Shown here: positions 1,797-38,675 of the stretch, piece by piece
Position numbering within the stretch: the stretch's first letter is position 1
Layout: every line of letters begins with the position of its first letter
From: Sphingomonas flavalba
Lineage (GTDB): Bacteria > Pseudomonadota > Alphaproteobacteria > Sphingomonadales > Sphingomonadaceae
Assembly: GCF_004796535.1 (NCBI RefSeq)
Contig: NZ_SPHY01000007.1
Location: 62,001 to 126,000 of the forward strand
Reading direction: 5' to 3'
Length of the DNA stretch: 64,000 bases
Translations under genes and position numbers: made by a program
Notes under the pieces: model-generated
Databases searched by the model: none
What the model saw: the letters and a program-made list of their open reading frames with translations, nothing else
What the model was told of the DNA's origin: nothing

Positions 1797-2294
1797 TCAG
1801 CGCATCAGGCCGGACGCCAGCTTTTCGAGCAGGCGGTTGAGGGTGGCGATCTCGCTTTTCTTCATGTGGCGGAACGCTTCCTCGTAGAGGCGGTTGGCGG
1901 CGGCCCAGGCCTTGGCCCCGGCGTCCTTGCCGGCGTCGGTCAGCATCACTTCAGTGACGCGGCCGTCGCTTGGCCGCTGACGGCAGACGACCAGCCCGTC
2001 CGCTTGCATCCGCTGGACGATCTTGGTCATCGTCGGCAGCTTGGCGATTGCGTGGTCGGCGATCTCGCTGACGCTGGCGCAATGTTCGAGGTGGAGGACC
2101 ATCAGCACCCGCCAGCGCGGGATGTCGAGGCCGATCGCCTTCAGCGCCTGTTCCATGTTGCCGAGATAGCGGCCGTTGGCCCGCGCCAGCCAGTAGAACG
2201 GCCAGGTCCGGAAGGAGAAGTCGCGGGGCGCCGCCCCCGGCTCCGCTCGTGACCGGCCGGCCGAATCGACCGGGACAGTCGTACTCATGTCCAT
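1797..2294 (-). CDS. iacR: MarR-family regulator, IacR-like
   Basis: This 165-residue winged-helix protein has a MarR core at about residues 58-125: the recognition helix region EIADHAIAKLPTMTKIVQRM and the wing CRQRPSDGRVTEVML. It is divergent from the amidase/hydroxylase operon starting at 2526. The space between them holds a near-perfect inverted repeat (2457-2476) that fits a MarR operator. MarR proteins (IacR and relatives) are the known auxin-responsive repressors of iac and iad clusters, and the target operon here has iac gene content, hence the name. The start could be M1 or M3. The symbol rests on neighbourhood; the MarR assignment is firm. Confidence 0.75.
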   Translation of the reverse strand: MDMSTTVPVDSAGRSRAEPGAAPRDFSFRTWPFYWLARANGRYLGNMEQALKAIGLDIPRWRVLMVLHLEHCASVSEIADHAIAKLPTMTKIVQRMQADGLVVCRQRPSDGRVTEVMLTDAGKDAGAKAWAAANRLYEEAFRHMKKSEIATLNRLLEKLASGLMR

Positions 2295-2456
2295 GGGACT
2301 CCTGCGGAAAATGGCGATCGGTGATAACTGCGGCCGGTTAGGGCCGGCGCCAGTCTAACGGGCGGCGGTAGCGGCCTGTCAAGCCGGAAACGACGGTCAA
2401 ACCGGGGTTTGCATCGCAAGGACGGGCAGGGGCGGTTTCCCGGGGCATCAAGAAAT

Positions 2457-2476
2457 TTACTTGACTAATCACGTAA
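2457..2476. promoter_or_regulatory. Probable MarR operator over the promoter of the iac-like operon
   Basis: TTACTTGA-CTAA-TCACGTAA is an inverted repeat with 7 of 8 arm bases matching. It overlaps a candidate -35 TTGACT (2461-2466). A candidate -10 TGTGAT follows at 2484-2489 after 17 bases. The 20-bp span and the position between marR and its divergent operon are typical of MarR repressor sites. Confidence 0.6.
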
Positions 2477-2525
2477 TGTAGCTTGTGATGGCGCTATCGA
2501 GAGCAAGAGGGTGAGAGGCAGGCAG

Positions 2526-3659
2526 ATGGGCGCGATCCTCGTCGAGGAACTGGCCCTGGGCGCGGGGGAGACGGCGGTCGTGGTCAAGGACTCGATCGCC
2601 GTGGCCGGTTACCCGACTCGCGCCGGCAGCCGCGCCCTAGCCGATGCGCCACCCGCCGCCGCCCACGCCGCCGTCGTCCAGGCGCTGCTCGACGCCGGCT
2701 GCCGGATCACCGGCAAGGCGAACATGCACGAACTGGCTTACGGCGTGACCGGGATCAACGGCTGGACCGGCACGCCGGTCAACCCGCGCTACCCGGACCG
2801 GGTGCCGGGCGGGTCGTCGAGCGGATCGGCGGTCGCGGTCGCGGCGGGGTTGTGCGATTTCGCGCTGGGTACCGACACCGGCGGCTCGATCCGCATCCCG
2901 GCGATCTGCTGCGGCCTGTACGGGCTGAAGCCGACATTCGGCCGGATCGGCCGCGACGGCGTGCTGCCGGCGGAATCGTCGCTGGATTGCGTCGGCCCGT
3001 TCGCGCGCAGCCTGGCGATGATCGAACGGGCGATGGCGCTGCTCGACACTAGTTTCCACGCCGAAGCCGCCGTCGCGCGGCCACGGATCGGCGTCGTCGC
3101 GGTGACGGCGGACGCGCCGGTCGCACAGGCGGTTGCCGCGCGGCTGGCCGCTTCGCCGGTCGAACAGGTGCCTGTCGCCTTGCCCGGCATGGAGGCGGCC
3201 TATGACGCCGGGCTGGCGATCATCGCCGCCGAGAACTGGCGGGCATTCGGCCATCTTGCCCGGTCGCCGCTGCTCGGCGCCGATGTCGGCGAGCGGTTGC
3301 GTGCCGCCGAGGCGGTGACCGCTGAACAACTGGCGCGGGCGGAGACGGTCCGCGCCGCGTTCGCCGCCGAGGTCGATGCGGCGCTCGACCGGGTCGACGC
3401 GCTGGTGCTGCCGACGATGCCGGGCCTGCCGCTGACCCTGGCGGCGGCGGCGGACGCGCGCGCGACGATCGGCTCCACCGCCTTCGTCCGGCCGTTCAAC
3501 CTGTCCGGCCACCCGGCGCTCAGCATGCCGCTGACGACGGCGGACGGCCTGCCGGCCGGTTTGCAGATCATCGGGCGGCGCGGCGGCGACGCCCGGCTGT
3601 GCGCGGTCGCCCGCGCGCTCGACATCGTAACGGAACAATCAGGAGGAGCAGACCAATGA
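2526..3659 (+). CDS. iacH: Amidase-signature enzyme, IacH-like
   Basis: This 377-residue protein is of the amidase signature family. The Ser-cisSer-Lys triad can be seen: Lys21 in VVVKDSI, the cis-Ser in PGGSSSGS (about 97), and nucleophile Ser121 in TDTGGSIRIP. KANMHELAYGVTG is also typical. ATG 2526 is preferred over GTG 2511 because GAGGCAGGCAG precedes it and the conserved part begins soon after. The stop overlaps the next start as ATGA (3656-3659), showing translational coupling. Amidases of this type occur in iac auxin-degradation operons as IacH, whose exact step is not settled; hydrolysis of an amide or lactam intermediate is likely. On its own it would be called a generic amidase. 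Confidence 0.8.
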   Translation: MGAILVEELALGAGETAVVVKDSIAVAGYPTRAGSRALADAPPAAAHAAVVQALLDAGCRITGKANMHELAYGVTGINGWTGTPVNPRYPDRVPGGSSSGSAVAVAAGLCDFALGTDTGGSIRIPAICCGLYGLKPTFGRIGRDGVLPAESSLDCVGPFARSLAMIERAMALLDTSFHAEAAVARPRIGVVAVTADAPVAQAVAARLAASPVEQVPVALPGMEAAYDAGLAIIAAENWRAFGHLARSPLLGADVGERLRAAEAVTAEQLARAETVRAAFAAEVDAALDRVDALVLPTMPGLPLTLAAAADARATIGSTAFVRPFNLSGHPALSMPLTTADGLPAGLQIIGRRGGDARLCAVARALDIVTEQSGGADQ

Positions 3660-4813
3660 ACTATGTGGAGGCCGGGCGGCCGGTTGCCGCCGACGCGGCG
3701 GACCCGTTCGCGCCGCTGCTCGCGGAGATATCCGCCCGCCGGGCGGAGTTCAGCGAGCAGCAGCAGTTGAGCGAGGACGTCGTCGAGAAGCTGCGCGCGG
3801 CCGGGGTGTACCGCGCCCTCGTGCCCCGCATCTTCGGCGGCGACGAGTGCTCGCCCGCCGATTTCCTGCGGATGATCGAGCGCATCTCGATTGCTGACGG
3901 ATCGGCCGGCTGGGTGGCGAGCTTCGGCATATCGGTGCTGTACCTGGCGTCGCTGCCGATGGAGACGCTGAACGAGATCTACGGCAACGGACCGGACGTG
4001 ATCTTCGCCGGCGGGCTGTTCCCGCCGCAGAAGGCCGAGGTCGTCGACGGCGGGCTGAAGGTCACCGGCAAATGGAAGTTCGGCAGCGGATCGACCGGCG
4101 CCGACCTGATCGGCGTCGGTATCAAGGTCGACGGCGGCCAGAATGCCGGCCTGCCGCGCATGGCGGTGATGCCGGCGAAGAAGGTGAAGGTCGTTCCCAA
4201 CTGGGAGGTCAACGGCCTGAAGGGCACCGGCAGCCACGACCTGGTCGTCGAAGGCGTCGTGGTGCCGGAAAGCTGGACCTTCATCCGCGGCGGCAAGGCG
4301 ACGCTGGACGGCCCGCTCTACCGTTATCCGTCGATGGGCTTTGCCGCGCAGGTGCTGGCGGTGGTCGGCCTGGGCGTCGCGCGGGCGGCGCTGGACGAGA
4401 TCACCAGCATCGCCGGCGGGCGCGGATCGATCACCGGCGCGCCGGTGCTGGCCGACCGCGCCTATGTCCAGATCGAGATCGCCAAGGCGGAAGCGGCGCT
4501 GCGTTCGGCCCGCGCCTTCTTCTACGAGGCGACCGAGACGGCCTGGCAGAAGCTGGTTGCCGGAGAGACGCTGCCGATCGAGGACATCAACCTGATCCGC
4601 CTCGCCGCCAGCCATGTCGCGCGCGTCGGCTCCGATGTCGCCGGCATCGCCTACAAGCTGTCGGGCACCACCGGCATCTACACCGCCCACCCGATCGCCC
4701 GGCACCTGCAGGACGCGATGGTGGTTGTGCAGCACGCCTTCCTGTCCGAAGGCACCTGGCAGAGCGCCGGCCGCGTGCTGCTGGGGCTGGAATCCGCCCC
4801 CGGCTTTCCCTGA
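3656..4813 (+). CDS. iacA: Acyl-CoA-dehydrogenase-fold flavin monooxygenase, IacA-like indole-acetate hydroxylase
   Basis: This 385-residue protein has the acyl-CoA dehydrogenase fold of the two-component flavin hydroxylases (HpaB/DszC/IacA type). The N-terminal helical part carries LSEDVVEKLRAAGVYR, the middle beta domain has GLKVTGKWKFGSGS, and the C-terminal helices hold GTTGIYTAHPIARHLQD. In characterised iac systems IacA starts the pathway by oxygenating the indole ring of indole-3-acetic acid with reduced flavin supplied by IacG. No flavin reductase gene is seen here, so the reductase would be elsewhere. It overlaps the amidase stop by 4 bases and is followed 21 bases later by an IacB-like gene. 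Another aromatic hydroxylation role is possible. Confidence 0.75.
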   Translation: MNYVEAGRPVAADAADPFAPLLAEISARRAEFSEQQQLSEDVVEKLRAAGVYRALVPRIFGGDECSPADFLRMIERISIADGSAGWVASFGISVLYLASLPMETLNEIYGNGPDVIFAGGLFPPQKAEVVDGGLKVTGKWKFGSGSTGADLIGVGIKVDGGQNAGLPRMAVMPAKKVKVVPNWEVNGLKGTGSHDLVVEGVVVPESWTFIRGGKATLDGPLYRYPSMGFAAQVLAVVGLGVARAALDEITSIAGGRGSITGAPVLADRAYVQIEIAKAEAALRSARAFFYEATETAWQKLVAGETLPIEDINLIRLAASHVARVGSDVAGIAYKLSGTTGIYTAHPIARHLQDAMVVVQHAFLSEGTWQSAGRVLLGLESAPGFP

Positions 4814-4834
4814 TCGACCTGAGAGAGGACCAAG

Positions 4835-5197
4835 ATGACCGATACTACCCAGAAGCCGATCCGCGCGCTGTTCTGCGCGGCAGTGACCCAGAATTTCTTC
4901 GACCTGCCCGCGTCCGAGATTGGCGCGGTGTGGGCGGCGACCGGCGAGATGCTGAAGGGCATCCGCGCGATTCCCGGCGTGACCATCCTCGGCACGCTCG
5001 ACGATGACGAGACGATGGTCGGCACCTCGCCCAACGGCTGGCCGTGGACCTTCTACATCATGGCCGACGTGGCGGACCGGGCCGCCGCGATCGCGGTGTG
5101 CAACCTGTTCCGCACCACCCCGGTCGGCGAGTACCGGCTGTGGAAATACATGCGGATCGAGGCGCGGCTGGGCCGCGAGCTGGTCATCCCGGCATGA
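4835..5197 (+). CDS. iacB: Small conserved protein of unknown function, IacB-like
   Basis: This 120-residue cytosolic protein has no recognised catalytic motif. Notable stretches are FFDLPASEIGAVW, TILGTLDDDETMVG and GWPWTFYIMADV, which suggest a compact ferredoxin-like alpha/beta fold. It has a good ribosome site (GAGAGGACC) and sits between the hydroxylase and the SDR. This is the position and size expected of IacB, a small protein of unknown role found next to iacA in auxin-catabolic clusters. Its stop overlaps the SDR start (ATGA at 5194-5197). The name comes from context and size. Confidence 0.6.
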   Translation: MTDTTQKPIRALFCAAVTQNFFDLPASEIGAVWAATGEMLKGIRAIPGVTILGTLDDDETMVGTSPNGWPWTFYIMADVADRAAAIAVCNLFRTTPVGEYRLWKYMRIEARLGRELVIPA

Positions 5198-5940
5198 GCG
5201 AGGGCGCGCCACAGGCGGCGCTGGTCACCGGCGGCGCGCAGGGGCTGGGCGCGGAGATTGTCCGCGCCCTGCACCGGGCCGGCTACCGCGTCGCGATCGG
5301 CGATATCGCGGAGGCGGCGGCGCTGGCGGCGGAGCTTGACCCGAGCGGTGCCACCGCCTTCGGCCTTGCCCTCGACGTGCGCGAACAGGCGGGGTTCGAG
5401 GCGGCGCGCGACCGGATGGTCGCCGCCTGGGGCGGGGCGGACATACTGGTCAACAACGCGGTGATGACCGTGGCGCGGCCGGTGCTCGACATTCCGCCGG
5501 AGGAGTTCGACGCGGTGCTGGCGGTCAACCTGCGCGGCACCTTCATCGGCAGCCAGGTGTTCGGCCGGCATTTCCGCGACCGTGGCTATGGCCGGATCGT
5601 CAACATGGCGTCGCTGGCGGCGCAGAACGGCGGATCGGCGACCGGCGCGCATTATGCCGCGTCGAAGGGCGCGATCATCACCCTGACCAAGGTGTTCGCC
5701 CGCGACCTGGCGGCGCACGGCATCACCGTCAACGCGGTGGCGCCGGGGCCGCTCGACCTGCCGTCGGTGCGGGCGATCGTGCCGGCGGACAAGCTGGACG
5801 GGCTGATCGCAGGCATCCCGGCCGGGCGGCTGGGCGACCCGGCGTTCATCGCCGACATCGTCGTCCAACTCGCGTCGCCGGCGGCAGCCTCCGTCACCGG
5901 CGCGACCTGGGACGCCAATGGCGGGCTGTACATGCGCTGA
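5194..5940 (+). CDS. iacE: Short-chain dehydrogenase/reductase, IacE-like
   Basis: This is a classical 248-residue SDR. It has the cofactor loop TGGAQGLGAE near residues 13-22, the NNAV structural motif, the active-site serine in NMASLAAQ and the YAASKG catalytic Tyr/Lys motif. IacE of known iac clusters is an SDR needed to form dioxindole-3-acetate after IacA acts, and the gene order here (amidase, hydroxylase, small protein, SDR) supports that role. The start lies inside the stop of the preceding gene, so the two are translationally coupled. SDR assignment is certain; the substrate is inferred. Confidence 0.75.
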   Translation: MSEGAPQAALVTGGAQGLGAEIVRALHRAGYRVAIGDIAEAAALAAELDPSGATAFGLALDVREQAGFEAARDRMVAAWGGADILVNNAVMTVARPVLDIPPEEFDAVLAVNLRGTFIGSQVFGRHFRDRGYGRIVNMASLAAQNGGSATGAHYAASKGAIITLTKVFARDLAAHGITVNAVAPGPLDLPSVRAIVPADKLDGLIAGIPAGRLGDPAFIADIVVQLASPAAASVTGATWDANGGLYMR

Positions 5941-6034
5941 GCCGGGCGGGGCGGCGCTACGGTTTCAGCCAAACGAATGCTGCACGCCGGGGCGATTATC
6001 TTGCTATGCGGATCGCCCCTCTCAAGGATCGAAT

Positions 6035-7042
6035 ATGGCGCGCATACTGTGTTTCGGTGAAATCCTGCTCCGCCTGGCCGCGACCGGCGGCGACCTGCTG
6101 GTGCAGAGCCGCAGCCTGGCGGTGCATGTCGGCGGGGCGGAGGCCAATGTCGCCGCCGCGCTCGCCCAGCTTGGCCATGACGCGGCGGTGCTGTCGATCC
6201 TGCCGGATTCGCGGCTGGGCGACGCGGCGGTCTCGGCGCTCGGCGCGCGGGGCGTCGATACCCGGCGGATCGCGCGGCGCCCCGGCCGGATGGGGCTGTA
6301 TTTCTTCGAACCCGGCGCCGGGGCGCGGGCGGGCGAGATCGTCTACGACCGCGCCGGATCGGCCTTCGCCGACGGGCTTGGCACGGCGGTGTGGGACGAC
6401 GCGCTGCCCGGCGGCGGCTGGCTGCACCTGTCCGGCATCACCCCGGCGCTGACCGCCGTCGCGGCGAACGCGACGCTGGCGCTGGCCCGCGCCGCGCGCG
6501 CCGCCGGCTTGCGCGTGTCTTTCGACTGCAATTATCGCCCCAGCCTGTGGCAGGCATCGGGCGGCGACGCGCCGACCATCCTCGGCGCGCTGGCGGCGGA
6601 GGCGGACCTGCTGTTCGGCAATTACCGCGACGCGGCGCTGCTGACCGGCGCGGCGTTCGACGGCGACGGGCCGGAGCGGCGGCGCGCGGCGGCCGAGGCG
6701 CTGTTCGCCGCTTTCCCGAACCTGACGACGATCGCATCGACCAGCCGCCATGTCGACGGCGCCGACACCCACCGGCTGTCGGCGCGGATCGATACGCCGG
6801 ACGATGTCGTCCAGCTCGACGAGACGGCGCTGACCGGCATCGTCGACCGGATCGGCGGCGGCGACGCGTTCGCCGCCGGCGTGCTGCACGGGCTGGCGAC
6901 CGGCGGCGACCCGGCCCGCGCCGCCCGGCTGGGGCTGGCCGCCGCCGTCCAGAAGCATTTCATCTCCGGCGACGTGTGGATCGGCGACGCCGCCGGCCTC
7001 GACGCCTTCGTCATCGGCGGCACCGGGGACATCCGCCGGTAA
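6035..7042 (+). CDS. PfkB-family sugar kinase, probably 2-keto-3-deoxygluconate kinase
   Basis: This 335-residue ribokinase/PfkB-fold protein begins ILCFGEILLRL, has the first PfkB signature around VHVGGAEANVAAALAQLG, and ends with the ATP/anion-hole motif GGGDAFAAGVLHG (GAGD variant with the catalytic Asp). Such proteins in proteobacteria commonly phosphorylate 2-keto-3-deoxygluconate before aldol cleavage in the Entner-Doudoroff route. ATG 6035 follows AAGGATCG and gives the usual family length. It is a single gene, 94 bases after the SDR, and ends at a strong bidirectional terminator. KDG is the likely but unproven substrate. Confidence 0.8.
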   Translation: MARILCFGEILLRLAATGGDLLVQSRSLAVHVGGAEANVAAALAQLGHDAAVLSILPDSRLGDAAVSALGARGVDTRRIARRPGRMGLYFFEPGAGARAGEIVYDRAGSAFADGLGTAVWDDALPGGGWLHLSGITPALTAVAANATLALARAARAAGLRVSFDCNYRPSLWQASGGDAPTILGALAAEADLLFGNYRDAALLTGAAFDGDGPERRRAAAEALFAAFPNLTTIASTSRHVDGADTHRLSARIDTPDDVVQLDETALTGIVDRIGGGDAFAAGVLHGLATGGDPARAARLGLAAAVQKHFISGDVWIGDAAGLDAFVIGGTGDIRR

Positions 7043-16254: not shown

Positions 16255-17832
16255 TCAGCCGATCGCCTGGGCGACCAGATGGCCGGATACGCCGCCCAAC
16301 CCGGGTCCGGGGTGGGTGGAGGCGCCGATCTGGTAGAGGTGCCTGATCGGTGTCGCATGGCCGCGCGCGGCGGCGAATGGGCGCAGCAGGTGGAACTGGT
16401 CGACCGAGCAGACGCCTGAATAGGGGTCGCCGCCGACGAGGTTGATGTTGTGCGCCTCAAGCGTATGCGGGCCGAGCACCGTCATGCCCAGCATCGCCGT
16501 GTCGAGGTTGGCGATGTGGGCGCCGAGCCGGGCGACGATCCGCCGCGCATAGGCTTCGGCGATCGCGTCGGTCCAGCGGCCGTCCGCCGGCGCCGCGATC
16601 TCGCCGGCCGCGTCGCCGCGAATGACGCGGGGCAGTTCCTGCAACTGGATCCACAGCAGCGAAGCGCCGGGCGGGCAGCGGGACGGGTCGGCATCGGCGG
16701 GCTGGCCGACGACGATCGTCGCCTCCGCCGGCAGCAGGCCGCGTTCCGCCTCGTTCACCGCGCGCGATACGCCGTCCAGCCCCGGCGTCAGGTGGAGCAG
16801 GCCGACCCGGCCCAGTTCCGGGTCCGCCCAGCGCGGCGGCTCCGACAGAGCGATGTGGATCTGCATGCAGCCCCGGCCGTAGCGATAGGCGGCGGCCTGC
16901 CGGCGGATGTCCGGCGCGACCGGCTGGCCGGCCAGCAGCCGCTCGTAAAGCTGGGTCGGCGTGACGTTGCAGACGACGGCGCGGGACGCGGCGAAGCGGC
17001 GGCCGTCGGCGGTGACGACGCCGCGCGCTCTGCCGCCCACGACGGTGATGCCGGTGACGTCGGCGTCGGTCAGCACGGCGCCGCCGCCCGCCTCGATGAT
17101 GCGGCGGAAGGCGGTGACGATGTTGGCGCTGCCGCCTTCGACGAACGGAATGCCGACCATTTCCAGCGTGAACATCACCACCTTGGCCATCAGCGCCGAA
17201 AAACTGCTTTCCGGGCCCAGCCCGACATGCAGCACCCACGGCGCGATCAGCGCGCGGACAAGATCGGAGCCGAAGGATTGTTCCAGCCAGTCGCGCACCG
17301 GCAGCAACCCGCCGGCACCGAACCCGGCCATGCCGTCGACCCCGCGCCGGAACAACTGCCCGCCGAGGAGCTTCAACGTTGCGGCGGAGCGCGGTTCCTG
17401 CCCCAGCAGGCCGAAGATCAGCGGCGCATCGCGCTCGATCTGTGCCATCGCGGCGGCATGGGCGGCGCCGTCGCCCCGGTGGAGCGTGTCGAACGCGGCG
17501 ACGTTCTCCGCCCGGGCCTGGCGCAGCAGCAGCGACCGGCCGTCGGGCAGCAGCACGCCGGTCGGCACAGCCGCCGGTACCATCCGCACCCCTTCCGCCG
17601 CCAGCCGGGGCTTCAGCGCCGGGTAGAAAGGGGTGGTGACGAACAGCGGATAGGACATGGAAAACAGGTCGTGGCGATAGCCGGGCAGCGTCACCTCCCC
17701 GGTGCGGATGCAGCCGCCGGCGACGGCCGCCCGTTCCAGCACCAGCACGCGCCGGCCCCTGCCGGTCAGTTCGGCGGCGCAGACCAGCGAATTGATGCCG
17801 CTGCCGACGATCACCACGTCATAATCGCTCAT
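16255..17832 (-). CDS. CrtI/phytoene-desaturase-like FAD-dependent oxidoreductase
   Basis: This 525-residue protein has a Rossmann dinucleotide motif VIVGSGINSLVCAAEL at residues 7-22 followed by VLVLERA, and the C-terminal FAD signature HPGPGLGGVSGH typical of the phytoene-dehydrogenase superfamily. It is the last gene of a tightly overlapping operon with a Rieske dioxygenase, and its start overlaps the SDR stop (17829-17832). No other carotenoid gene is present, so it more likely oxidises or isomerises an intermediate of the operon's pathway. The substrate is unknown. Confidence 0.75.
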   Translation of the reverse strand: MSDYDVVIVGSGINSLVCAAELTGRGRRVLVLERAAVAGGCIRTGEVTLPGYRHDLFSMSYPLFVTTPFYPALKPRLAAEGVRMVPAAVPTGVLLPDGRSLLLRQARAENVAAFDTLHRGDGAAHAAAMAQIERDAPLIFGLLGQEPRSAATLKLLGGQLFRRGVDGMAGFGAGGLLPVRDWLEQSFGSDLVRALIAPWVLHVGLGPESSFSALMAKVVMFTLEMVGIPFVEGGSANIVTAFRRIIEAGGGAVLTDADVTGITVVGGRARGVVTADGRRFAASRAVVCNVTPTQLYERLLAGQPVAPDIRRQAAAYRYGRGCMQIHIALSEPPRWADPELGRVGLLHLTPGLDGVSRAVNEAERGLLPAEATIVVGQPADADPSRCPPGASLLWIQLQELPRVIRGDAAGEIAAPADGRWTDAIAEAYARRIVARLGAHIANLDTAMLGMTVLGPHTLEAHNINLVGGDPYSGVCSVDQFHLLRPFAAARGHATPIRHLYQIGASTHPGPGLGGVSGHLVAQAIG

Positions 17833-18635: not shown

Positions 18636-19225
18636 GCCGCCTCCGGGGGGAACAGGCTGTCCACCGACGCAACATCGCCGATCAGGGCGATGTTGAACAG
18701 CGCCGCGTCGTGGACCTCCGGCCGGGCGGCGGAGCAGGCGTCGGCGGCGACGACGACTTCGTAGCCCATGTCGGCGGCGTGACGGGCGCTGTGCTCGACC
18801 ACCGAATTGGTGGCGACCCCGGCCATCGCCAGCCGGGTCGCGCCGAGATCGCTCAGCACCGCTTCCAGCGGGGAATCATAGAAGGCGTTGACCCGGCCGT
18901 GGGTGACGACCGCCTCGCCGGCCAGCGGCTCCAGCCCGGCATGCCAGTCGACGCCCCAGCTGCCTTCCTCCATCGCCCCGGCGGCAACGACGTTGCGGAA
19001 AATCGGCGCGTTGGTCCGCACGCCCGCGTGCCCGGCGGGAAAGGCGATGCGGACATGGACGATCGGCACGCCGGCCCGCCGGGCGCCGGCCAGCAGCCGC
19101 GCCGCCGCCGCGACTACCGCGTCGCGCCGGTCGCTGCCCTCGGCGACGCCCAGCCGGATGCGCCCGTCCGGGTGCAGCACCTCATTCTGGTAATGCAGCG
19201 CCAGCAACACGGTGCCGCTGGTCAC
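18632..19225 (-). CDS. Isochorismatase-fold protein with degenerate catalytic triad
   Basis: This 197-residue protein has the isochorismatase/cysteine-hydrolase fold: the first strand TVLLALHYQNEVLHPDG, the second-region motif THGRVNAFYDSPL, and GVATNSVVEHSARHA. The family's Asp-Lys-Cys triad is replaced at all three positions: His11 where VVDMQN has Asp, His109 where TKxxxSAF has Lys, and Val142 where GxxTNxC has Cys. It cannot work by the usual cysteine chemistry. It is translationally coupled to the Rieske beta subunit upstream and the SDR downstream. It could be a binding protein, a His-dependent enzyme or a structural partner. Confidence 0.75.
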   Translation of the reverse strand: MTSGTVLLALHYQNEVLHPDGRIRLGVAEGSDRRDAVVAAAARLLAGARRAGVPIVHVRIAFPAGHAGVRTNAPIFRNVVAAGAMEEGSWGVDWHAGLEPLAGEAVVTHGRVNAFYDSPLEAVLSDLGATRLAMAGVATNSVVEHSARHAADMGYEVVVAADACSAARPEVHDAALFNIALIGDVASVDSLFPPEAA

Positions 19226-19725
19226 AGGAACGCTTCCAGCGTCGCGTGCACCTCCTCGCTGTCGATCAGATCGATCCGCTTCTCGACGATGGCGAAGCCG
19301 TCGCCGCGCGGCAGCAGGCGGTGGGTGTAGAAGCCGGAGAGCAGCCGCTGCGGCAGCGACAGCCGGCTTTCGGCCATCAGAAAGGTGGAATGGACGACGG
19401 TTTCGCCCGGCACCGTCGCGGTGCCGAGGCGGATATTGCCGACGATCCGGGCGGCGTGGACTTGTGGCTGCTGCGACCAGGCGCGCTTTTCCTCCAGCCG
19501 GCGGGCGCGGACCTCGCGCATCATCGCGTCCTCGTAGAACAGCGAGACGTGGTTGATCGGATCCGGCTGGTCGGGGCGGAGCGGGGCCCAGTACATGCCG
19601 TCGGGGGTGAACAGCTCCAGCCAGTCGAACCAGCGCCGCTGGTCGAGCAGCGCTGCTTCCTCGAACAGGAAGGCAGTGACGGCGGCGAGGATGTCGGCCG
19701 GGGACATGGTTGCGGTCGCGCTCAT
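19222..19725 (-). CDS. Aromatic-ring-hydroxylating dioxygenase beta subunit, IacD candidate
   Basis: This 167-residue protein has the cystatin-like fold of ring-hydroxylating dioxygenase small subunits: AVTAFLFEEAALLDQRRW near the N-terminus, LFTPDGMYWAPLRP, then SLFYEDAMMREVRARRLEE and a C-terminal sheet with RIDLIDSEE. Beta subunits assemble with alpha as alpha3beta3 and are structural. It starts one base after the alpha stop and overlaps the next gene by 4 bases. Assignment to the family is firm; identity with IacD is a hypothesis from the window's gene content. Confidence 0.85.
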   Translation of the reverse strand: MSATATMSPADILAAVTAFLFEEAALLDQRRWFDWLELFTPDGMYWAPLRPDQPDPINHVSLFYEDAMMREVRARRLEEKRAWSQQPQVHAARIVGNIRLGTATVPGETVVHSTFLMAESRLSLPQRLLSGFYTHRLLPRGDGFAIVEKRIDLIDSEEVHATLEAFL

Positions 19726-19726
19726 C

Positions 19727-21031
19727 TCAGGCCTCCTCGCCCATATATTCGGCCCAGGCGCGAAACTGGTTGCGCATCGGCAGCTCGCTCAGCCCGCCGC
19801 CGGTGTAGCGGCCGTTGCCGTCGCCCTGCTCGCGCCCCGCCTCGCGGTGCAGGCTGACCCAGTCGCCGCCGTCGGTCGCCAGCCCTTCCTGCACGCGGGC
19901 ATAGACCTCGATGTCGTCGGGCATCACGTTGGACGACGGCGAGTTGACGATGTTGGCGTAGGTGATCGAACGCTGGAAATAATCCTCCGGCGCGCCCTTC
20001 AGGCGGAAGGTGTAGATCTCGACCAGCGTCCGGTCGACCGCGATCGGCCGGATCACGCGCAACTGCTGGAACGAGGTGTGCGGCGCGCAGCTTGGGTAGA
20101 TGATCGAGTTATGGCGTTGGACGGACAGGATTTCGTGCGCCTTTTCCGGCCCGTGCACCGCCTCCAGCGCCGCCTGGTGGCCGAGCGACACCGGGTCGGT
20201 CGGCGGGGTGAAGATCGCGCCCATGTAGCTGTGGCCGCGGTCGTAGGCGACCATCTCCAGCGCCCCCCAGAAATCATAAGGCTCGCCATTGCCTTCGATG
20301 ATGTGGAGCTGGAACGGCATCTGCCCGCCGTCGCCGCGATGCTGATACTCGGCGCGGGCGGCGTTGACCGCGCTTTCGTGGGTGACCATCGGGTGCGACG
20401 TATCATTCAGATTTTCGAAGAAAATCTTCCAGTTCGACCGTTGCCAGACGCGGAACACGCCCCCGGCGACCTCGACCTCCCCCTCCGGCGCGCGGTCGCA
20501 GAAATTGTCCAGCGTCAGCCGGATGCCGCCCAGGAACTCCTCCAGCGACGGCCCGTCCTCCGCCAGGCTGGCGAAGACGAAGCCGCGATAGCTTTGCTGG
20601 CGGGGCACTCGCCGCACGGAGAATGCCGGGTCGCGCAGGTCGAAGCGCGTATCCTCATACCCCTCCCGCGCCGGCACCGACAGCAGCCGGCCGTCGCAGC
20701 GGAAGTTCCAGCCGTGGAACGGGCAGCGCAGGAAGCGCCCGGCATTGCCGCACGGCTGGGCGAGCAGCTTGGCGCCCTTGTGCGGGCAGCGGTTGAACAG
20801 GACATGCGGCTTGCCGTCGTCGCCGCGCACCATCACCACCGCCTCGCGGCCGATCAGCGCCTGATGATAGTCGCCGACGTTGGGGATCTGGCTTTCATGG
20901 CCGACATAGATCCAGGCCCGGCCGAAGATGCGGTCCATCTCCAGCTCGAACAGGCCGGGGTCGACATAGACCGACTTGTGGACGCGGTCCGGTTCGACCA
21001 GCGTATCGATGGCGGGCAGTTGGCGGGTCAT
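19727..21031 (-). CDS. Rieske aromatic-ring-hydroxylating dioxygenase alpha subunit, IacC candidate
   Basis: This 434-residue protein has a Rieske [2Fe-2S] site at Cys82/His84 (RCPHKG) and Cys103/His106 (CPFHGW). The mononuclear iron site lies in NLNDTSHPMVTH with Asp210, His213 and His218. It adds dioxygen across an aromatic ring using electrons from the reductase encoded next to it. GTG/ATG choices upstream exist (MPDIL at 21058), but ATG 21031 has GGAGGAT at the right distance. Rieske oxygenases of this kind (IacC, anthranilate or benzoate dioxygenase types) deliver catechol from anthranilate-like or oxindole intermediates. With iac-like genes 14 kb away, IacC is a good candidate, but anthranilate dioxygenase cannot be ruled out. 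Confidence 0.85.
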   Translation of the reverse strand: MTRQLPAIDTLVEPDRVHKSVYVDPGLFELEMDRIFGRAWIYVGHESQIPNVGDYHQALIGREAVVMVRGDDGKPHVLFNRCPHKGAKLLAQPCGNAGRFLRCPFHGWNFRCDGRLLSVPAREGYEDTRFDLRDPAFSVRRVPRQQSYRGFVFASLAEDGPSLEEFLGGIRLTLDNFCDRAPEGEVEVAGGVFRVWQRSNWKIFFENLNDTSHPMVTHESAVNAARAEYQHRGDGGQMPFQLHIIEGNGEPYDFWGALEMVAYDRGHSYMGAIFTPPTDPVSLGHQAALEAVHGPEKAHEILSVQRHNSIIYPSCAPHTSFQQLRVIRPIAVDRTLVEIYTFRLKGAPEDYFQRSITYANIVNSPSSNVMPDDIEVYARVQEGLATDGGDWVSLHREAGREQGDGNGRYTGGGLSELPMRNQFRAWAEYMGEEA

Positions 21032-21050
21032 CCTATCCTCCAGCAGAATA

Positions 21051-22055
21051 TCAGGCATCGAGCACCAGCCGCTCGCCCCTGGCGCGCGACACACAGGTGC
21101 AGATCAGTTTTCCGGCGCGTTTCTCGCGCTCGCTCAGGTTCATGTCGCGATGGTCCGGCTCGCCATCGATCACGTCGGTGACGCAGATGCCGCATTCGCC
21201 GCGCCGGCAGTCGAACAGCGGATCCAGGCCGATCTCCTCCATCACCTCCAATATCGTGCGGCCGACCGGCACTTCCGCCGTCTTGCCGCTGCGCGCGAAG
21301 ACGGCGGTGAACGGGCGGTCGCCGGCCCGCGGATCGTCGGCGCCGAACAGCTCGAAATGCAGGCGCGCATCCGGCCAGCCGGCCGCCTTCGCCGCCGCCA
21401 GCGTCGCCGCGATCAGCGGGCGCGGCCCGCAGACATACAGGTGCCGGCCCTCGCGCGGCCCGGCGACCAGCGCGTTCAGGTCAAGCCCCTTCGCCGGGTC
21501 GCCGCCGTCGCACACCAGCCGCGCGCCGGGCATCGCCGCCACCTCGTCGGCATAGGCCATCGCCGCGCGGTGGCGGCCGGCATAATGGATCTCGGCGCCG
21601 CGCCCGCCCAGCGCGCGGGCCATCGCCAGGATCGGCGTGATGCCGATGCCGCCGGCGATCAGCAGGGTCTCCGTCGCCGTCGTGACCAGCGGAAAGTCGT
21701 TGCGCGGGCTGCCGACGCGGATCGGGTCGCCGGCGCCGAGGCTGTGCATGAAGCGTGATCCGCCCCGCCCATCGCCGCTCAGCGCCACCGCGATCCGGTA
21801 GACGCCGGTCTCTCCCGGCGCATTGACCAGCGAATAGGCGCGCATGCCGGATCGGCCGTTAGGCAGGCGCACCTCGCATTCGACATGCGCGCCGGCTGAA
21901 AAACCGTCGAGGCGTTGCCCGTCGGCCGGGGCCAGCGCGAATTCCCGCACCGCCTCCGCCCGCTGGGCCGCCTCAACCACTCGCATCGGCCTCAACACGC
22001 ACGGCACCTCTGTCGTCGGGCGGGGACGCCCGTGATCTGCTGCTGTCGACATCAT
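21051..22055 (-). CDS. PDR/VanB-family oxidoreductase with C-terminal [2Fe-2S] ferredoxin domain
   Basis: This 334-residue electron-transfer flavoprotein has an N-terminal FMN-binding beta barrel (RAYSLVNAPGE with the flavin motif), then the NAD(P)H domain (LLIAGGIGITPILAMARAL and YVCGPRPLI). The C-terminal plant-type ferredoxin carries cluster cysteines in CRRGECGIC and a distal Cys in ICTCVSR. This single-chain architecture supplies Rieske oxygenases such as vanillate demethylase and IacC (as IacF). It is the first gene of the six-gene minus-strand operon. The start is uncertain: an internal ATG at 21986 would match VanB-type N-termini better. Confidence 0.85.
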   Translation of the reverse strand: MMSTAADHGRPRPTTEVPCVLRPMRVVEAAQRAEAVREFALAPADGQRLDGFSAGAHVECEVRLPNGRSGMRAYSLVNAPGETGVYRIAVALSGDGRGGSRFMHSLGAGDPIRVGSPRNDFPLVTTATETLLIAGGIGITPILAMARALGGRGAEIHYAGRHRAAMAYADEVAAMPGARLVCDGGDPAKGLDLNALVAGPREGRHLYVCGPRPLIAATLAAAKAAGWPDARLHFELFGADDPRAGDRPFTAVFARSGKTAEVPVGRTILEVMEEIGLDPLFDCRRGECGICVTDVIDGEPDHRDMNLSEREKRAGKLICTCVSRARGERLVLDA

Positions 22056-30251: not shown

Positions 30252-30647
30252 ATGGTGATGACGGCAGGGCGTATCTTTCCTGTCATCCGGTTGGCGGCGG
30301 GCATTGCGGCGCTGTGCAGCGTGGCGCCGGCCGCGGCGCAACAGGCGGCAGCGGGGGCGACCTTGTTCAAGCGCTGTGCGATCTGCCATTCCGTCACGCC
30401 GGGCAAGGGCGTGACGCTGGGCCCCAATCTCGCCGGTATCGTCGGGCGCAAGGCGGGCGCGCAGACGGGCTTCACCTATTCCAAGGCGATGGCCGGCGCG
30501 CCGTTCAAATGGGATCAGGCGAAGCTCGATGCGTTCCTGGCGCGGCCGCAGGCTGTGGTGCCCGGCAATCGCATGGCCTTTGCCGGCATGTCCAACACGG
30601 CGGAGCGGGCGCAGCTTATCGCCTATTTGAAAACATTGGGCAAATGA
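30252..30647 (+). CDS. Class I c-type cytochrome
   Basis: This 131-residue protein has a signal peptide (to about residue 30, VAPAAAQ) and a haem-binding CAICH at residues 42-46. The axial Met lies in GNRMAFAGM. Around it are GPNLAGIVGRKAG and FTYSKAMAGAPFKWD, the classic mitochondrial-type cytochrome c2 layout. It lies directly before the amine dehydrogenase heavy chain and so is the likely electron acceptor of the TTQ enzyme, replacing the azurin or amicyanin used in other bacteria. ATG 30252 follows GGAGTGGGAGA; ATG 30258 is an alternative. Confidence 0.88.
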   Translation: MVMTAGRIFPVIRLAAGIAALCSVAPAAAQQAAAGATLFKRCAICHSVTPGKGVTLGPNLAGIVGRKAGAQTGFTYSKAMAGAPFKWDQAKLDAFLARPQAVVPGNRMAFAGMSNTAERAQLIAYLKTLGK

Positions 30648-30678
30648 ACGGCCGCCCGGCGGCCACGGGAGGAGCGTG

Positions 30679-31839
30679 ATGAACATCTGGCGCATTGCAG
30701 CTTCCGCGGCCCTGGCCGCCGCCATCGTGCCGGCGGCGGCGCTGGCGCAGACCGAAGAGCTGAAAAGCGAGGAGATGTACCAGGTCGAACTGGCCGACCA
30801 GATGCGCCCGCATTGGGTGTGGGTGAACGACGTGTCCTTCACCCGCCCGCTCGACGGCCGCGCCTATCTGCTCGACGCCGACAGCGGGCAGTTCCTCGGC
30901 ATGGTCAGCGGCGGCTATGCGCAGGGGCCGTTGCAGATCACCCGCGACGGCAAGCGCTTCTCGATGGTTTCGACCTATTATTCGCGCGGGACTCGTGGCG
31001 AGCGCACTGATGTTGCTACGTTCTATGACATCAAGACGCTGGACCAGACTGGCGAGGTGGTGATCCCGCCCAAGCATTTCATCAGCCTGCCGATCCTGTC
31101 GACCGCGCGGCTGAGCGACGACGACCGGTTCCTGCTGGTTTACAATTTCACCCCCGAACAATCGGTGTCGGTCGTCGACGTCGCCGCCGGCAAGCTGATC
31201 GGCGAAACCGCGACGCCGGGCTGCGCGCTGGTCTACCCGGTCGCGCCGCGCCGGTTCTTCATGCAGTGCAGCGACAGCGCGCTGCAGGCGGTGTCGATAT
31301 CCGAGGCCGGTGCGCTTTCGCTCGATGCGACGACGACCAAGCTGTTTTCCGACGACGACCCGGCCAACGAAAAGCCGGTGCGGATCACCCCGGCCGAGTG
31401 GCTGTTCATCACCCGCGACAGCGAGGTGCGGATCGTCGACGGGTCCGGCGCGGTGCCGAAGGTCAAGGCGAAGTGGAGCCTGCTCGACAAGGATACCGCC
31501 GAATGGCGGATCGGCGGGCTGCAGCCGTCCGCCTATCATGCCCGCTCGGGGCGCCTCTACACGCTGATGCATGTGGGGGATCGCGATACCCACAAGGACC
31601 CCGGCACGGAGGTGTGGGTCTATGACGTCGCCGCCGGCAAGCGGGTGCAGCGGATCAAGCTGGACGGGCCGGCAACGGCGCTGGCGGTCAGCGAGGATGC
31701 GGAGCCGCTGCTCTACACGGTGATGTTCGGGGTCGACGAGCTGGCGGTCTACGATGCCCGCGACGGGACCAAGCGGCGCGGGATCACCGGCCTCGGCAAT
31801 TCGCTGAGCGTGATCCAGCCGGCGCCGGTCGCGCCGTGA
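30679..31839 (+). CDS. aauB: TTQ amine dehydrogenase heavy (beta-propeller) subunit
   Basis: This 386-residue periplasmic protein has a signal peptide (to ALAQT, about residue 24) and a seven-bladed propeller as in MauB/AauB. Recognisable pieces are HWVWVNDVSF, RAYLLDADSGQFLGM, TFYDIKTLDQTGEV, FMQCSDSALQ and THKDPGTEVWVYD. The heavy subunit forms the alpha2beta2 enzyme and shapes the substrate pocket over the TTQ cofactor of the light chain. ATG 30679 has GGGAGGAG five bases before it. The gene order B-E-D-A matches both mau and aau clusters. The light chain (DYWRYCAIDGFLCSCCGG) is closest in feel to aromatic amine dehydrogenase, hence aau. Confidence 0.85.
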   Translation: MNIWRIAASAALAAAIVPAAALAQTEELKSEEMYQVELADQMRPHWVWVNDVSFTRPLDGRAYLLDADSGQFLGMVSGGYAQGPLQITRDGKRFSMVSTYYSRGTRGERTDVATFYDIKTLDQTGEVVIPPKHFISLPILSTARLSDDDRFLLVYNFTPEQSVSVVDVAAGKLIGETATPGCALVYPVAPRRFFMQCSDSALQAVSISEAGALSLDATTTKLFSDDDPANEKPVRITPAEWLFITRDSEVRIVDGSGAVPKVKAKWSLLDKDTAEWRIGGLQPSAYHARSGRLYTLMHVGDRDTHKDPGTEVWVYDVAAGKRVQRIKLDGPATALAVSEDAEPLLYTVMFGVDELAVYDARDGTKRRGITGLGNSLSVIQPAPVAP

Positions 31840-31846
31840 GCGGGTG

Positions 31847-32383
31847 ATGCTCGACCCCTTCCTTCTGCTCCTCGCGCGGGCGGCGCTGGGCGGGCTGATG
31901 CTGGCGGCGGCGCTGCACAAGCTGAGTGAGCCGGCGCGCTTCGCCGACGCGGTCGACGGCTATCGGCTGGTGCCGGCGCCGCTGATCCGGCCGACGGCGT
32001 GGGCGATCATGCTGGCCGAACTGGCGGCGGCGCTGGCCGTGCTCTGGCCGGTCGGCGAGGCGTGGCGGGCGGGGCTGGGCGGTGTCGCCGGGCTGATGCT
32101 GGCCTATGCCGCTGCGATGGCGATCAACCTGCTGCGCGGGCGCAGCAATGTCGACTGCGGCTGCCTGGGCTTCGGCGCGGCCAAGCGGATTCGCTGGGCG
32201 ATGGTCGGGCGCGGCGGGGCGCTGGCGGCGGTGTCCGCGCTGGTCGCCCTGGCGCCGGCGGCGGTGCGGCCGCTGCTGTGGATCGACTGGTTCGGCGTGG
32301 GCGTCGGCCTGCTGTGCGTGCTGTTGCTCTACATTGCGTTTGACGCGATCATCGGGGCGCCGTTGCGGGAGAAGGCCCGGTGA
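31847..32383 (+). CDS. aauE: Amine dehydrogenase accessory membrane protein MauE/AauE
   Basis: This 178-residue inner-membrane protein has four or five hydrophobic segments (LLLLARAALGGLMLAAAL, AIMLAELAAALAVLWPV, a third near GLMLAYAAAMAINLL, and two near the C-terminus). A DCGCLGFG cysteine pair is exposed after the third segment. MauE-type proteins belong to the DoxX/VKOR-like electron carriers and work with MauD in forming the many disulfides of the light chain. It starts 8 bases after the heavy chain and overlaps MauD by one base. Confidence 0.85.
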   Translation: MLDPFLLLLARAALGGLMLAAALHKLSEPARFADAVDGYRLVPAPLIRPTAWAIMLAELAAALAVLWPVGEAWRAGLGGVAGLMLAYAAAMAINLLRGRSNVDCGCLGFGAAKRIRWAMVGRGGALAAVSALVALAPAAVRPLLWIDWFGVGVGLLCVLLLYIAFDAIIGAPLREKAR

Positions 32384-33012
32384 TGACTGCCCTTGTCATT
32401 GCGGTATGCGTCCAGTGGGTGCTGATTGCCGTGCTGTGCGTCGGGCTGGTGGTGCTGCTGCGCCAGGTTGGGATGCTGCACGAGCGGCTCGGCCCGGTCG
32501 GCGCGCTGACCCTGCCGGGCGGGCCGAAGGCGGGCGATGCCGCGCCGCGGATGGCGCTGCGCGCGATGGATGGCCGGACGGTGACCGTCGGCGGCGCCCA
32601 TGCCGCCGGCCGGTCGACCCTGCTGTTTTTCCTGTCGCCGACCTGTTCGGTCTGCAAGACGCTGCTCCCGGTGGTGAAAGGCATTGCGCAGGAGGAGCGG
32701 AAGGCGCTGGACCTGGTGCTGGCCAGCGACGGCGACGAGCCGTTGCAGCGGCGGATGGTCGCGGATCACGGGCTGGAGGCATTTCCGCTGCTGCTGTCGA
32801 CCGACCTTGGCCTGGCCTATCAGGTATCGAAGCTGCCCCATGCGGTGCTGATCGCGCCGGACGGCACGGTCGCGGCCAAGGGGCTGGTCAACAACCGTGA
32901 GCATCTGGAAAGCCTGTTCGAGGCGCGCCGGCAGGGCGTCGCGTCGCTGCAGCAATATCTCAATCGTGAACGGGCCATCCCCGAGGGGATCGAAACGAGG
33001 ACGGTAACATGA
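32383..33012 (+). CDS. aauD: Amine dehydrogenase accessory thioredoxin-like protein MauD/AauD
   Basis: This 209-residue protein has an N-terminal membrane anchor (residues 4-26) and a periplasmic thioredoxin-like domain with active site CSVC at Cys88 and Cys91. It is expected to form or rearrange disulfides in the cysteine-rich light chain, and loss of MauD in methylotrophs prevents light-chain accumulation. The start overlaps the MauE stop as TGATG and the stop overlaps the light-chain start by 4 bases, so the three are tightly coupled. Confidence 0.87.
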   Translation: MTALVIAVCVQWVLIAVLCVGLVVLLRQVGMLHERLGPVGALTLPGGPKAGDAAPRMALRAMDGRTVTVGGAHAAGRSTLLFFLSPTCSVCKTLLPVVKGIAQEERKALDLVLASDGDEPLQRRMVADHGLEAFPLLLSTDLGLAYQVSKLPHAVLIAPDGTVAAKGLVNNREHLESLFEARRQGVASLQQYLNRERAIPEGIETRTVT

Positions 33013-33527
33013 ACAGACTGGACCGGATCACCGAAGCGCTCGCCCGATCGGCGGCGCGGCGCCTGTCGCGGCGCAGTTTCTTCGGGCGGCTGGGCGCGGC
33101 GATGACGGTGGCGACGGTGCCGCTGCTCCCGGTCAGCCGCGCCGCCGCCGAGCGTGGGCCGCAACCGCCCCAGCCGCAGGAAAAGGGCGATCCGGCCAAT
33201 TGCGACTATTGGCGCTATTGCGCGATCGACGGCTTCCTCTGTTCGTGCTGCGGCGGATCGATGTCGTCCTGCCCGCCGGGGACGGAGCCATCGCCGATCA
33301 CCTGGGTCGGCACCTGCCGCAACCCGGTCGACAACAAGGACTATGTGATCTCGTACAACGATTGCTGCGGCAAGAGCGCGTGCGGCCGCTGCGAGTGCAA
33401 CCGCAACGAACGCGATACGCCGGTCTATCAGCCCGCCGGATCGAACGACATCAACTGGTGCCTCGGCACGCAGAGCGGCGTCGTCTACAACTGCTCGACC
33501 GCCGTCGTGCTCGGCGCCGCCAGCTAG
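33009..33527 (+). CDS. aauA: TTQ amine dehydrogenase light (catalytic) subunit
   Basis: This 172-residue precursor has a long twin-arginine leader (SRRSFFGRLG at 20-29, cleavage near SRAAAE). The mature part keeps 14 cysteines from residue 65 on, as in MauA and AauA. The two tryptophans that form the TTQ cofactor are Trp99 (TWVGTC) and Trp150 (NDINWC), 51 residues apart, the same spacing as Trp57 and Trp108 of the methylamine enzyme. The catalytic base is Asp118 (SYNDCCG), equivalent to Asp76. All essential residues are present, so an active enzyme is expected. It deaminates primary amines to aldehydes. Aromatic amines such as tryptamine, tyramine and phenylethylamine are likely, and methylamine is less so. 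Confidence 0.92.
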   Translation: MNRLDRITEALARSAARRLSRRSFFGRLGAAMTVATVPLLPVSRAAAERGPQPPQPQEKGDPANCDYWRYCAIDGFLCSCCGGSMSSCPPGTEPSPITWVGTCRNPVDNKDYVISYNDCCGKSACGRCECNRNERDTPVYQPAGSNDINWCLGTQSGVVYNCSTAVVLGAAS

Positions 33528-33532
33528 CGCCG

Positions 33533-33976
33533 ATGCGCGGGCGCTCCGCCGTGCCGTGGGTCGCCGCCCCGCTGCTGGCGGTGGCGGGTGCGGTGCTGGT
33601 GACCGGCGCGACCGCGCCGCAGGACCGATCGCCGCGAACCAATTACGCGCTGCATTGTCAGGGGTGTCACCTGCCGGATGGAAGCGGCAAGCCCGGCGCG
33701 GTGCCTGACATGCGCGGCGAACTGGGGCGGCTGGCCGCCATTCCGGGCGGACGGGAGTTCATCGTCCAGGTGCCGGGTACCGCCAGCGCCAAGCTCGACG
33801 ACGCCCAGGTAACCGCGCTGCTCAACTGGCTGGTCCCGGCGATGGGGCCGCCGGTGCCGGGCGGGTTCAGGCCGTATAGCGTCGAGGAGGTCGGCCGGCT
33901 GCGGCGCCAGCGGCTGAAGCAGGTCGAGCCGCTAAGGTCCGAACTGGGCCGGGCGATCGCCGCGCAGCGGCGGTAG
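33533..33976 (+). CDS. Small monohaem cytochrome c
   Basis: This 147-residue exported protein has an N-terminal hydrophobic segment (residues 8-27) and one haem site CQGCH at residues 42-46. Possible axial methionines are in PDMRGE or PAMGPP. It ends with a charged helix rich in Arg and Glu. It starts 5 bases after the light chain and closes the operon. A small cytochrome gene after the light chain is also known in aromatic amine dehydrogenase clusters. It could take electrons from the enzyme or take part in TTQ maturation; the sequence does not decide. Confidence 0.82.
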   Translation: MRGRSAVPWVAAPLLAVAGAVLVTGATAPQDRSPRTNYALHCQGCHLPDGSGKPGAVPDMRGELGRLAAIPGGREFIVQVPGTASAKLDDAQVTALLNWLVPAMGPPVPGGFRPYSVEEVGRLRRQRLKQVEPLRSELGRAIAAQRR

Positions 33977-38664: not shown

Positions 38665-38675
38665 AAGGCCCGGTG

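Follow-up and report, generated by a model that had tools for sequence, protein, structure and literature searches.

A Reduced iac Operon in a Sphingomonad Genome and a Proposed Junction With an iad-Type Lower Pathway for Auxin Degradation

Gene Content of the iac Block

The window analyzed here is a stretch of 64,000 nucleotides from Sphingomonas flavalba, equivalent to positions 62001–126000 of contig C33 in a 3.07-Mb draft genome (35 contigs, stated completeness 100). Near its beginning, positions 1797–7042 hold a block of genes of the iac type, linked to catabolism of the auxin indole-3-acetic acid (IAA): iacR, iacH, iacA, iacB, iacE and a closing sugar kinase gene (Table 1). The comparison sets comprised 80 named IacA loci, 397 genomes of the family, 17 of them with a clear IacB, and 28 plasmid records with IacB. 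The relatives of the window genome that carry iac genes are sphingomonads, and Sulfitobacter W002 served as the sequence reference for iad products.

All five open reading frames from iacR to iacE are uninterrupted. IacH, IacA, IacB and IacE align over their entire length with their iac counterparts from Acinetobacter, Klebsiella and two Novosphingobium plasmids, and the best matches continue across the whole set. On sequence grounds the five genes are classed as intact orthologues of IAA catabolism genes, the similarity being far beyond chance; a preliminary description of this DNA had proposed the same identities and the link to auxin, and orthology along the whole set bears both out. Other details of that description hold as well. 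The amidase preserves its Lys, GGSSSG and GTDTGGS motifs; the iacH/iacA (3656/3659) and iacB/iacE (5194/5197) junctions are ATGA overlaps, and iacA and iacB are separated by a 21-bp gap. For iacH, the ATG at 2526 was preferred over the alternative GTG at 2511 because it aligns with the starts of relatives.

The preliminary description named a lack of IacB homology in the 120-amino-acid protein as a point that would refute it; the product of iacB is clearly related to IacB. Its AlphaFold model has a ferredoxin-like alpha+beta fold (predicted local distance difference test score 88.5), and a fold search returned weak matches only, with template-modeling scores of about 0.5, to chlorite-dismutase-like, ABM, YgiN and SnoaB folds. 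Of the marker genes in the published definition of an iac-like locus (PMC9613470), iacA and iacB are present.

Table 1. Positions of the genes and elements discussed, in the window unless a contig is named.
Feature	Position	Strand	Matches and remarks
iacR, MarR-family regulator	1797..2294	-	Best PDB match 7KUA, 131 bits; 48% to Novosphingobium EMRT-2 iac MarR, 37% to Klebsiella IacR
Operator-like element TTACTTGACTAATCACGTAA	2457..2476	+	iacR-iacH intergenic region, over the promoter
iacH, amidase-signature protein	2526..3659	+	65% to Novosphingobium EMRT-2 IacH; 47-49% to Acinetobacter and Klebsiella IacH; Pfam Amidase, 256 bits
iacA, acyl-CoA-dehydrogenase-like flavin monooxygenase (IAA 2-hydroxylase)	3656..4813	+	51-68% to Klebsiella, Acinetobacter and Novosphingobium IacA
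iacB, 120-amino-acid protein	4835..5197	+	54-75% to IacB; matches genes annotated 'IacB protein'
iacE, short-chain dehydrogenase (SDR) making dioxindole-3-acetate	5194..5940	+	50-67% to IacE; NNA, Ser and YxxxK motifs intact
PfkB-type sugar kinase (2-keto-3-deoxygluconate kinase-like)	6035..7042	+	61% to the kinase after iacG in family genome G276 (locus L224); closes the block
FAD oxidoreductase	16255-17832	-	Rieske module
SDR	17829-18635	-	Rieske module
Isochorismatase-like hydrolase	18632-19225	-	Rieske module
Rieske oxygenase beta subunit, IadE-like	19222..19725	-	Best PDB match IadE 7YLS/9O71
Rieske oxygenase alpha subunit, IadD family, not IacC	19727..21031	-	42-48% to IadD vs 29-31% to IacC; 100/100 tree split
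IadC-like PDR/VanB reductase	21051..21980	-	46% to Sulfitobacter IadC vs 34-36% to IacF
mau-type amine dehydrogenase cluster	30291..33976	+	Pfam Me-amine-dh_H, MauE, L-chain
IadG, IadH, isatin-hydrolase-like cyclase, coenzyme A (CoA) ligase	G000:C3:66.1-70.9 kb		Own genome

The Regulator and Its Putative Operator

The best structural match of the window regulator, 7KUA, is IacR of Pseudomonas putida, deposited together with 7L19 (PMC9613470). The window protein scores 131 bits against 7KUA and 117 bits against 7L19, vs 34 bits against the Variovorax regulator MarR_73 (7KFO). By these scores it groups with the solved IacR proteins and not with IadR. It may bind IAA and the iac promoter, whose operator-like element is conserved.

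Within 5 mismatches, the element TTACTTGACTAATCACGTAA recurs in several dozen iac loci, including those of Pseudomonas, mostly directly upstream of iacH or iacA, and three shuffles of the window gave 0 occurrences per 64 kb. This suggests that TTACTTGACTAATCACGTAA is probably an IacR binding site. Another operator candidate, TCAC-N12-GTGA, was dropped, being present in the window only, and a sigma-70 scan of the iacR-iacH promoter found no consensus match.

The Second Half of the iac Operon Is Missing

IacC and IacI were each searched in the whole assembly by alignment, and both are absent: the best own-genome match to IacC (158 bits) is an IadD-type Rieske protein and the best match to IacI, another marker of the published iac-like locus definition, reaches 28.7 bits. 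A Pfam search of the genome for Ring_hydroxyl_A yielded no IacCD elsewhere. Adjacent iacC and iacD genes, the anchor of the published census (PMC9613470), are not present at the window locus; IacD was not found, no genome-wide search having been aimed at IacD alone, and IacG is not at the iac locus, again with no genome-wide orthologue search aimed at it. The closest flavin reductase (46% to IacG) adjoins an HpaB-like oxygenase. The sole IacF-like gene is IadC-like, and within the window the candidates for reductase and beta subunit resemble IadC and IadE, respectively.

Such a gene set is rare. An IacC orthologue occurs in 16 of the 17 family genomes with IacB (710–890 bits, and 339 bits for a truncated copy in G280), the window genome being the exception, and nearly all of the 80 named IacA loci that have iacA, iacB, iacE and sufficient flank have iacC and iacD within reach. 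The block at 1797–7042 is almost certainly a reduced iac operon that keeps the front half only, and the published iac route to catechol does not appear to be encoded in this assembly. Catechol ortho-cleavage was rejected as a sink, since a single frame with an intradiol-dioxygenase domain (215 aa, 65 bits) and no obvious CatA was found; extradiol cleavage was not tested.

As a separate observation, the truncated IacC-like gene of G280 (L242:2560-3444) encodes 294 aa; its contig also carries IadG and a ligase, 8–10 kb distant, and the gene may be an iacC in decay next to genes of the iad type. Bradyrhizobium jicamae SZCCT0349 (L067) carries iacR, iacA, iacE and iacG without iacB and has no IacC in the whole genome (best match 170 bits); it is possibly another reduced set. 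Lone iacA genes, with no other iac gene within about 10 kb, were seen in seven Bradyrhizobium loci (L078, L091, L103, L105, L107, L109, L115).

Origin of the Reduced Operon

The closest full operon is that of family member G276 (L224), with the order H-A-B-I-C-D-E-G-kinase. Window and G276 are 79% identical in IacA, 81% in IacE and 61–63% in the kinase, and in the tree the two IacA proteins are sisters (Shimodaira-Hasegawa-like approximate likelihood ratio test, 93). The G276 operon has the kinase after the iac genes, as in the window, but it keeps I, C, D and G, unlike the window. Gene order, kinase match and IacA sisterhood together indicate that the block derives from a full sphingomonad operon of this order by loss of I-C-D between iacB and iacE and of G between iacE and the kinase. 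The G276 B|I junction and the window B|E junction have GGCATGAGC in common, and the G276 D|E junction reads GTGAGC; a deletion between short TGAGC repeats would preserve translational coupling. For iacH, iacA, iacB and iacE, pairwise pN/pS (ratio of nonsynonymous to synonymous changes) between window and G276 lies well below 1. This fits continued constraint on these four genes, but the measure also covers the period that preceded the loss.

The 2-keto-3-deoxygluconate-kinase-like gene that ends the block in the window also ends it in G276 (L224:9636-10625). Upstream, at L025:5500-6618, lies a sugar-acid dehydratase-like gene that shares 76% identity with one in the vicinity of the G276 operon.

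Candidate Lower-Pathway Genes on Two Other Contigs

Candidate genes for the later steps were found on contigs C3 and C1 of the same genome. The C3 cluster encodes IadG (64%) and IadH (49%), with IadG, IadH and IadI at 49–64% to Sulfitobacter, a cyclase whose best PDB match is the isatin hydrolase 5NMP (382 bits), and also a CoA ligase that is 57% identical to a Neorhizobium ligase; genes for AraC, TonB and a StyD-like aldehyde dehydrogenase come next. C1 carries a MarR gene, a second isatin-hydrolase-like cyclase (368 bits), IorA (74%) and IorB (60%), together with a protein of the salicylyl-CoA-5-hydroxylase family (PRK08255) and an acyl-CoA dehydrogenase. For IadJ the best match was 33% or less within the own-genome stretches examined, which is not a whole-genome search; IacE could perform this step.

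A Proposed Route Through Dioxindole-3-Acetate

The preliminary description concluded that the strain degrades auxin. This stands for the first part of the pathway, the genes of the block being sufficient, by analogy, for the conversion of IAA to dioxindole-3-acetate (DOAA) (PMC7225977); breakdown beyond DOAA needs other genes and probably proceeds by the iad-type lower pathway on the two other contigs. The explanation with the best support, which we consider reasonably probable and in which every step is predicted from sequence, is that a reduced, IacR-controlled iac operon feeds an iad lower pathway. In such a route IacA, supplied with reduced flavin by some other cellular reductase, would hydroxylate IAA to 2-hydroxy-IAA/oxindole-3-acetate, which IacE would oxidize to DOAA; the iac upper steps end with this compound, and the iad lower steps start from it. 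The CoA ligase, the IadG thiolase and IadH would then remove the side chain of DOAA, isatin hydrolase would open isatin to isatinate, and the IorAB-type 2-oxoacid oxidoreductase and the PRK08255-family hydroxylase would lead through anthranilate or anthraniloyl-CoA to central metabolism. The formation of anthraniloyl-CoA from isatinate by IorAB is suggested by its kinship with 2-oxoacid oxidoreductases, and we infer that the C33, C3 and C1 genes act together in this strain.

The junction itself is suggested by published biochemistry. IacA and IacE yield DOAA from IAA in Escherichia coli without IacB or IacG (PMC7225977), and Variovorax IadF, IadG, IadH and IadI act after a C10H9NO4 intermediate, giving anthranilate (PMC12633357). 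C10H9NO4 is the formula of DOAA, so the iac and iad pathways would meet at this compound. Genome distributions point the same way: IadG orthologues occur in 6 of the 17 family genomes with IacB vs 3 of the 380 others (Fisher test 2e-7, uncorrected for phylogeny or genome size; 3e-6 without the window genome). In the Neorhizobium SOG26 plasmid (L035), the genes for IacR, IacB, IacA, IacE and IacG adjoin those for a ligase, a cyclase, IadH and IadG, and the plasmid record contains no IacC. IacC is on 26 of the 28 plasmid records, and a close IadG on the SOG26 record only. N. hassiacum and G142 have IadFGHI and IorAB clusters, with IadCDE and IadJ not in the stretch read; their genomes have IacA and IacE and retain IacC. 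The combination of iac genes with iad lower genes is thus recurrent, and dependence on the latter is proposed only where iacC is gone.

Several observations weigh against this proposal. The genes involved lie on three contigs and do not form one operon, and the lower clusters have different local regulators, AraC at C3 and MarR at C1. A search allowing 5 mismatches, over about 18 kb around the two lower clusters, detected no IacR-like operator; co-regulation with the iac block is therefore unsupported and is not claimed. The C3 ligase, at about 33% to classical IadF, belongs to another ligase clade. Most family genomes with both IacB and IadG retain IacC too, so that the lower iad set may act on some other indole compound. 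Isatin, isatinate and anthranilate are not unique to iad strains, since a strain with a full iac-type cluster, Pseudomonas LY1, reportedly forms all three (PMC8383072). Finally, a draft in 35 contigs might miss an iacCD island, though completeness is stated as 100.

The principal competing explanation, which we regard as unlikely, is that the remnant operon is a dead end which turns IAA into excreted DOAA, as signal destruction or detoxification, and that the iad-type genes serve isatin, indole or other compounds. It would account for the sufficiency of H-A-B-E for DOAA only (PMC7225977), for C, D and I being absent or not found, for the separate regulation of the lower clusters and for the three family genomes that have IadG and lack IacB; what speaks against it is the strong enrichment of IadG among IacB-carrying genomes, the joining of both halves in the Neorhizobium locus and the action of Variovorax IadFGHI after an intermediate with the formula of DOAA. 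The preliminary description placed the Rieske genes elsewhere, and on that view a working iac pathway would lead to catechol. This version is very improbable and largely refuted: five true iac genes are there, and A-B-E and H-I-C-D do form separate groups in several sphingomonads, but IacC and IacI are nowhere in the assembly, the Rieske genes of the window group with IadD, and the catechol branch is limited to the one intradiol-dioxygenase-domain match.

Those Rieske genes, 13 kb away at 16255–21980, raise another alternative, namely that an IadCDE-like module replaces IacCD and acts on DOAA or IAA, as a second front end or a bypass. The module belongs to the family of IadCDE, which oxidizes IAA in Variovorax, and in Root720 and G243 it adjoins a cyclase of the isatin hydrolase family and IorA/IorB. 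Its alpha subunit, however, sits on a branch separate from IadD, the partner genes are unlike iadF-J, the module also occurs on pCAR1 and in Agrobacterium Q15/94 with no iac gene seen nearby, and Root720 and G243 carry it besides a full iac set; replacement of IacCD by this module is accordingly quite improbable.

The route through DOAA, taken more widely, would amount to a third layout of aerobic auxin catabolism, in which an iac front (IacA/IacE) and an iad back (ligase, IadG, IadH, isatin hydrolase and IorAB) meet at DOAA after loss of the iacCD branch, arisen at least twice, in the window sphingomonad and in Neorhizobium, and invisible to censuses anchored on adjacent iacC-iacD. We put this forward tentatively and with some doubt. 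We know of no report, from a limited literature search, in which an iad back end is combined with an iac front end that lacks iacCD. Hybrid clusters have been defined, but the loci considered all had neighboring iacC and iacD homologues (PMC9613470).

The Rieske Module and the Amine Region

The alpha subunit of the Rieske module scores 400 bits against 9O71, Variovorax IadD (PMC12633357), the next PDB family reaching 158 bits. Assignment of the window Rieske genes as IacCD was rejected, as the alpha subunit falls on the IadD side of the well-supported tree split. The same hydrolase-SDR-FAD oxidoreductase block is found in Root720 (L225) and G243 (L226), and a related block in Agrobacterium Q15/94 and on pCAR1; the module is assigned by similarity to the IadCDE family, in a separate subgroup with these four. 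The arrangement in Root720 and G243 probably corresponds to the 'fragmentary iad-like' clusters of PMC11630574.

The mau-type cluster (with 36048–39713), followed by permease, aminotransferase and kinase-like genes, adjoins or lies within iac loci L016, L051, L059 and L073 of other sphingomonads, and it recurs in the iac neighborhoods of N. aromaticivorans, N. hassiacum, N. jiangmenense and Croceicoccus sediminis. It was detected in 10 of the 17 family genomes with IacB vs 30 of the 380 others. It could convert tryptamine to indole-acetaldehyde, a potential source of IAA, and we note this accessory and uncertain role as a lead only. The amine region also encodes a histone-deacetylase-family protein of the acetylpolyamine amidohydrolase type (26757–27881), between two TonB receptors.

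Implications and Comparison With Known Systems

The route by which auxin is removed, iac or iad, matters in planta, where in complex communities only iad-type strains reversed auxin interference (PMC9613470). If DOAA is a modular hand-over point, iac and iad would be mix-and-match systems and not alternatives. Surveys that rely on iacC-iacD as their anchor would in that case miss some auxin degraders, and naming a strain an IAA mineralizer from iacA, iacB and iacE alone would be unsafe. With iacCD lost beside retained, operator-controlled iacA, iacB and iacE, the functions of IacB and of the Rieske step can be put directly to the test.

Compared with the iac operons of P. putida 1290, Acinetobacter, Enterobacter soli and Caballeronia glathei and with the Novosphingobium and Sphingomonas Root720 forms, the window has orthologous R, H, A, B and E, the same promoter element and the R-HAB..E.. 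frame of Acinetobacter; these operons also have C, I, D, F and G, none of which was found in the window genome (IacD and IacG without a dedicated genome-wide search). With the iad operon of Variovorax CL14 and Bradyrhizobium japonicum the genome shares IadG, IadH, an IadI/isatin-hydrolase-like cyclase, an IadF-class ligase and IorAB, as well as a Rieske module of the IadCDE family, but the module is of a different subgroup, the genes are split over three contigs and classical IadF is replaced by a member of another ligase clade. Root720, one of the strains with 'fragmentary iad-like' clusters (PMC11630574: Sphingomonas Root720, Root50 and Root1294 and Sphingopyxis Root154), has the same Rieske module and the same cyclase-IorA-IorB group, but differs in its complete iac set with iacCD. 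The Neorhizobium SOG26 plasmid resembles the window genome in having IacR, IacB, IacA and IacE and no IacC on its record, and differs in that IacG is present and the iad-type lower genes directly adjoin the iac genes.

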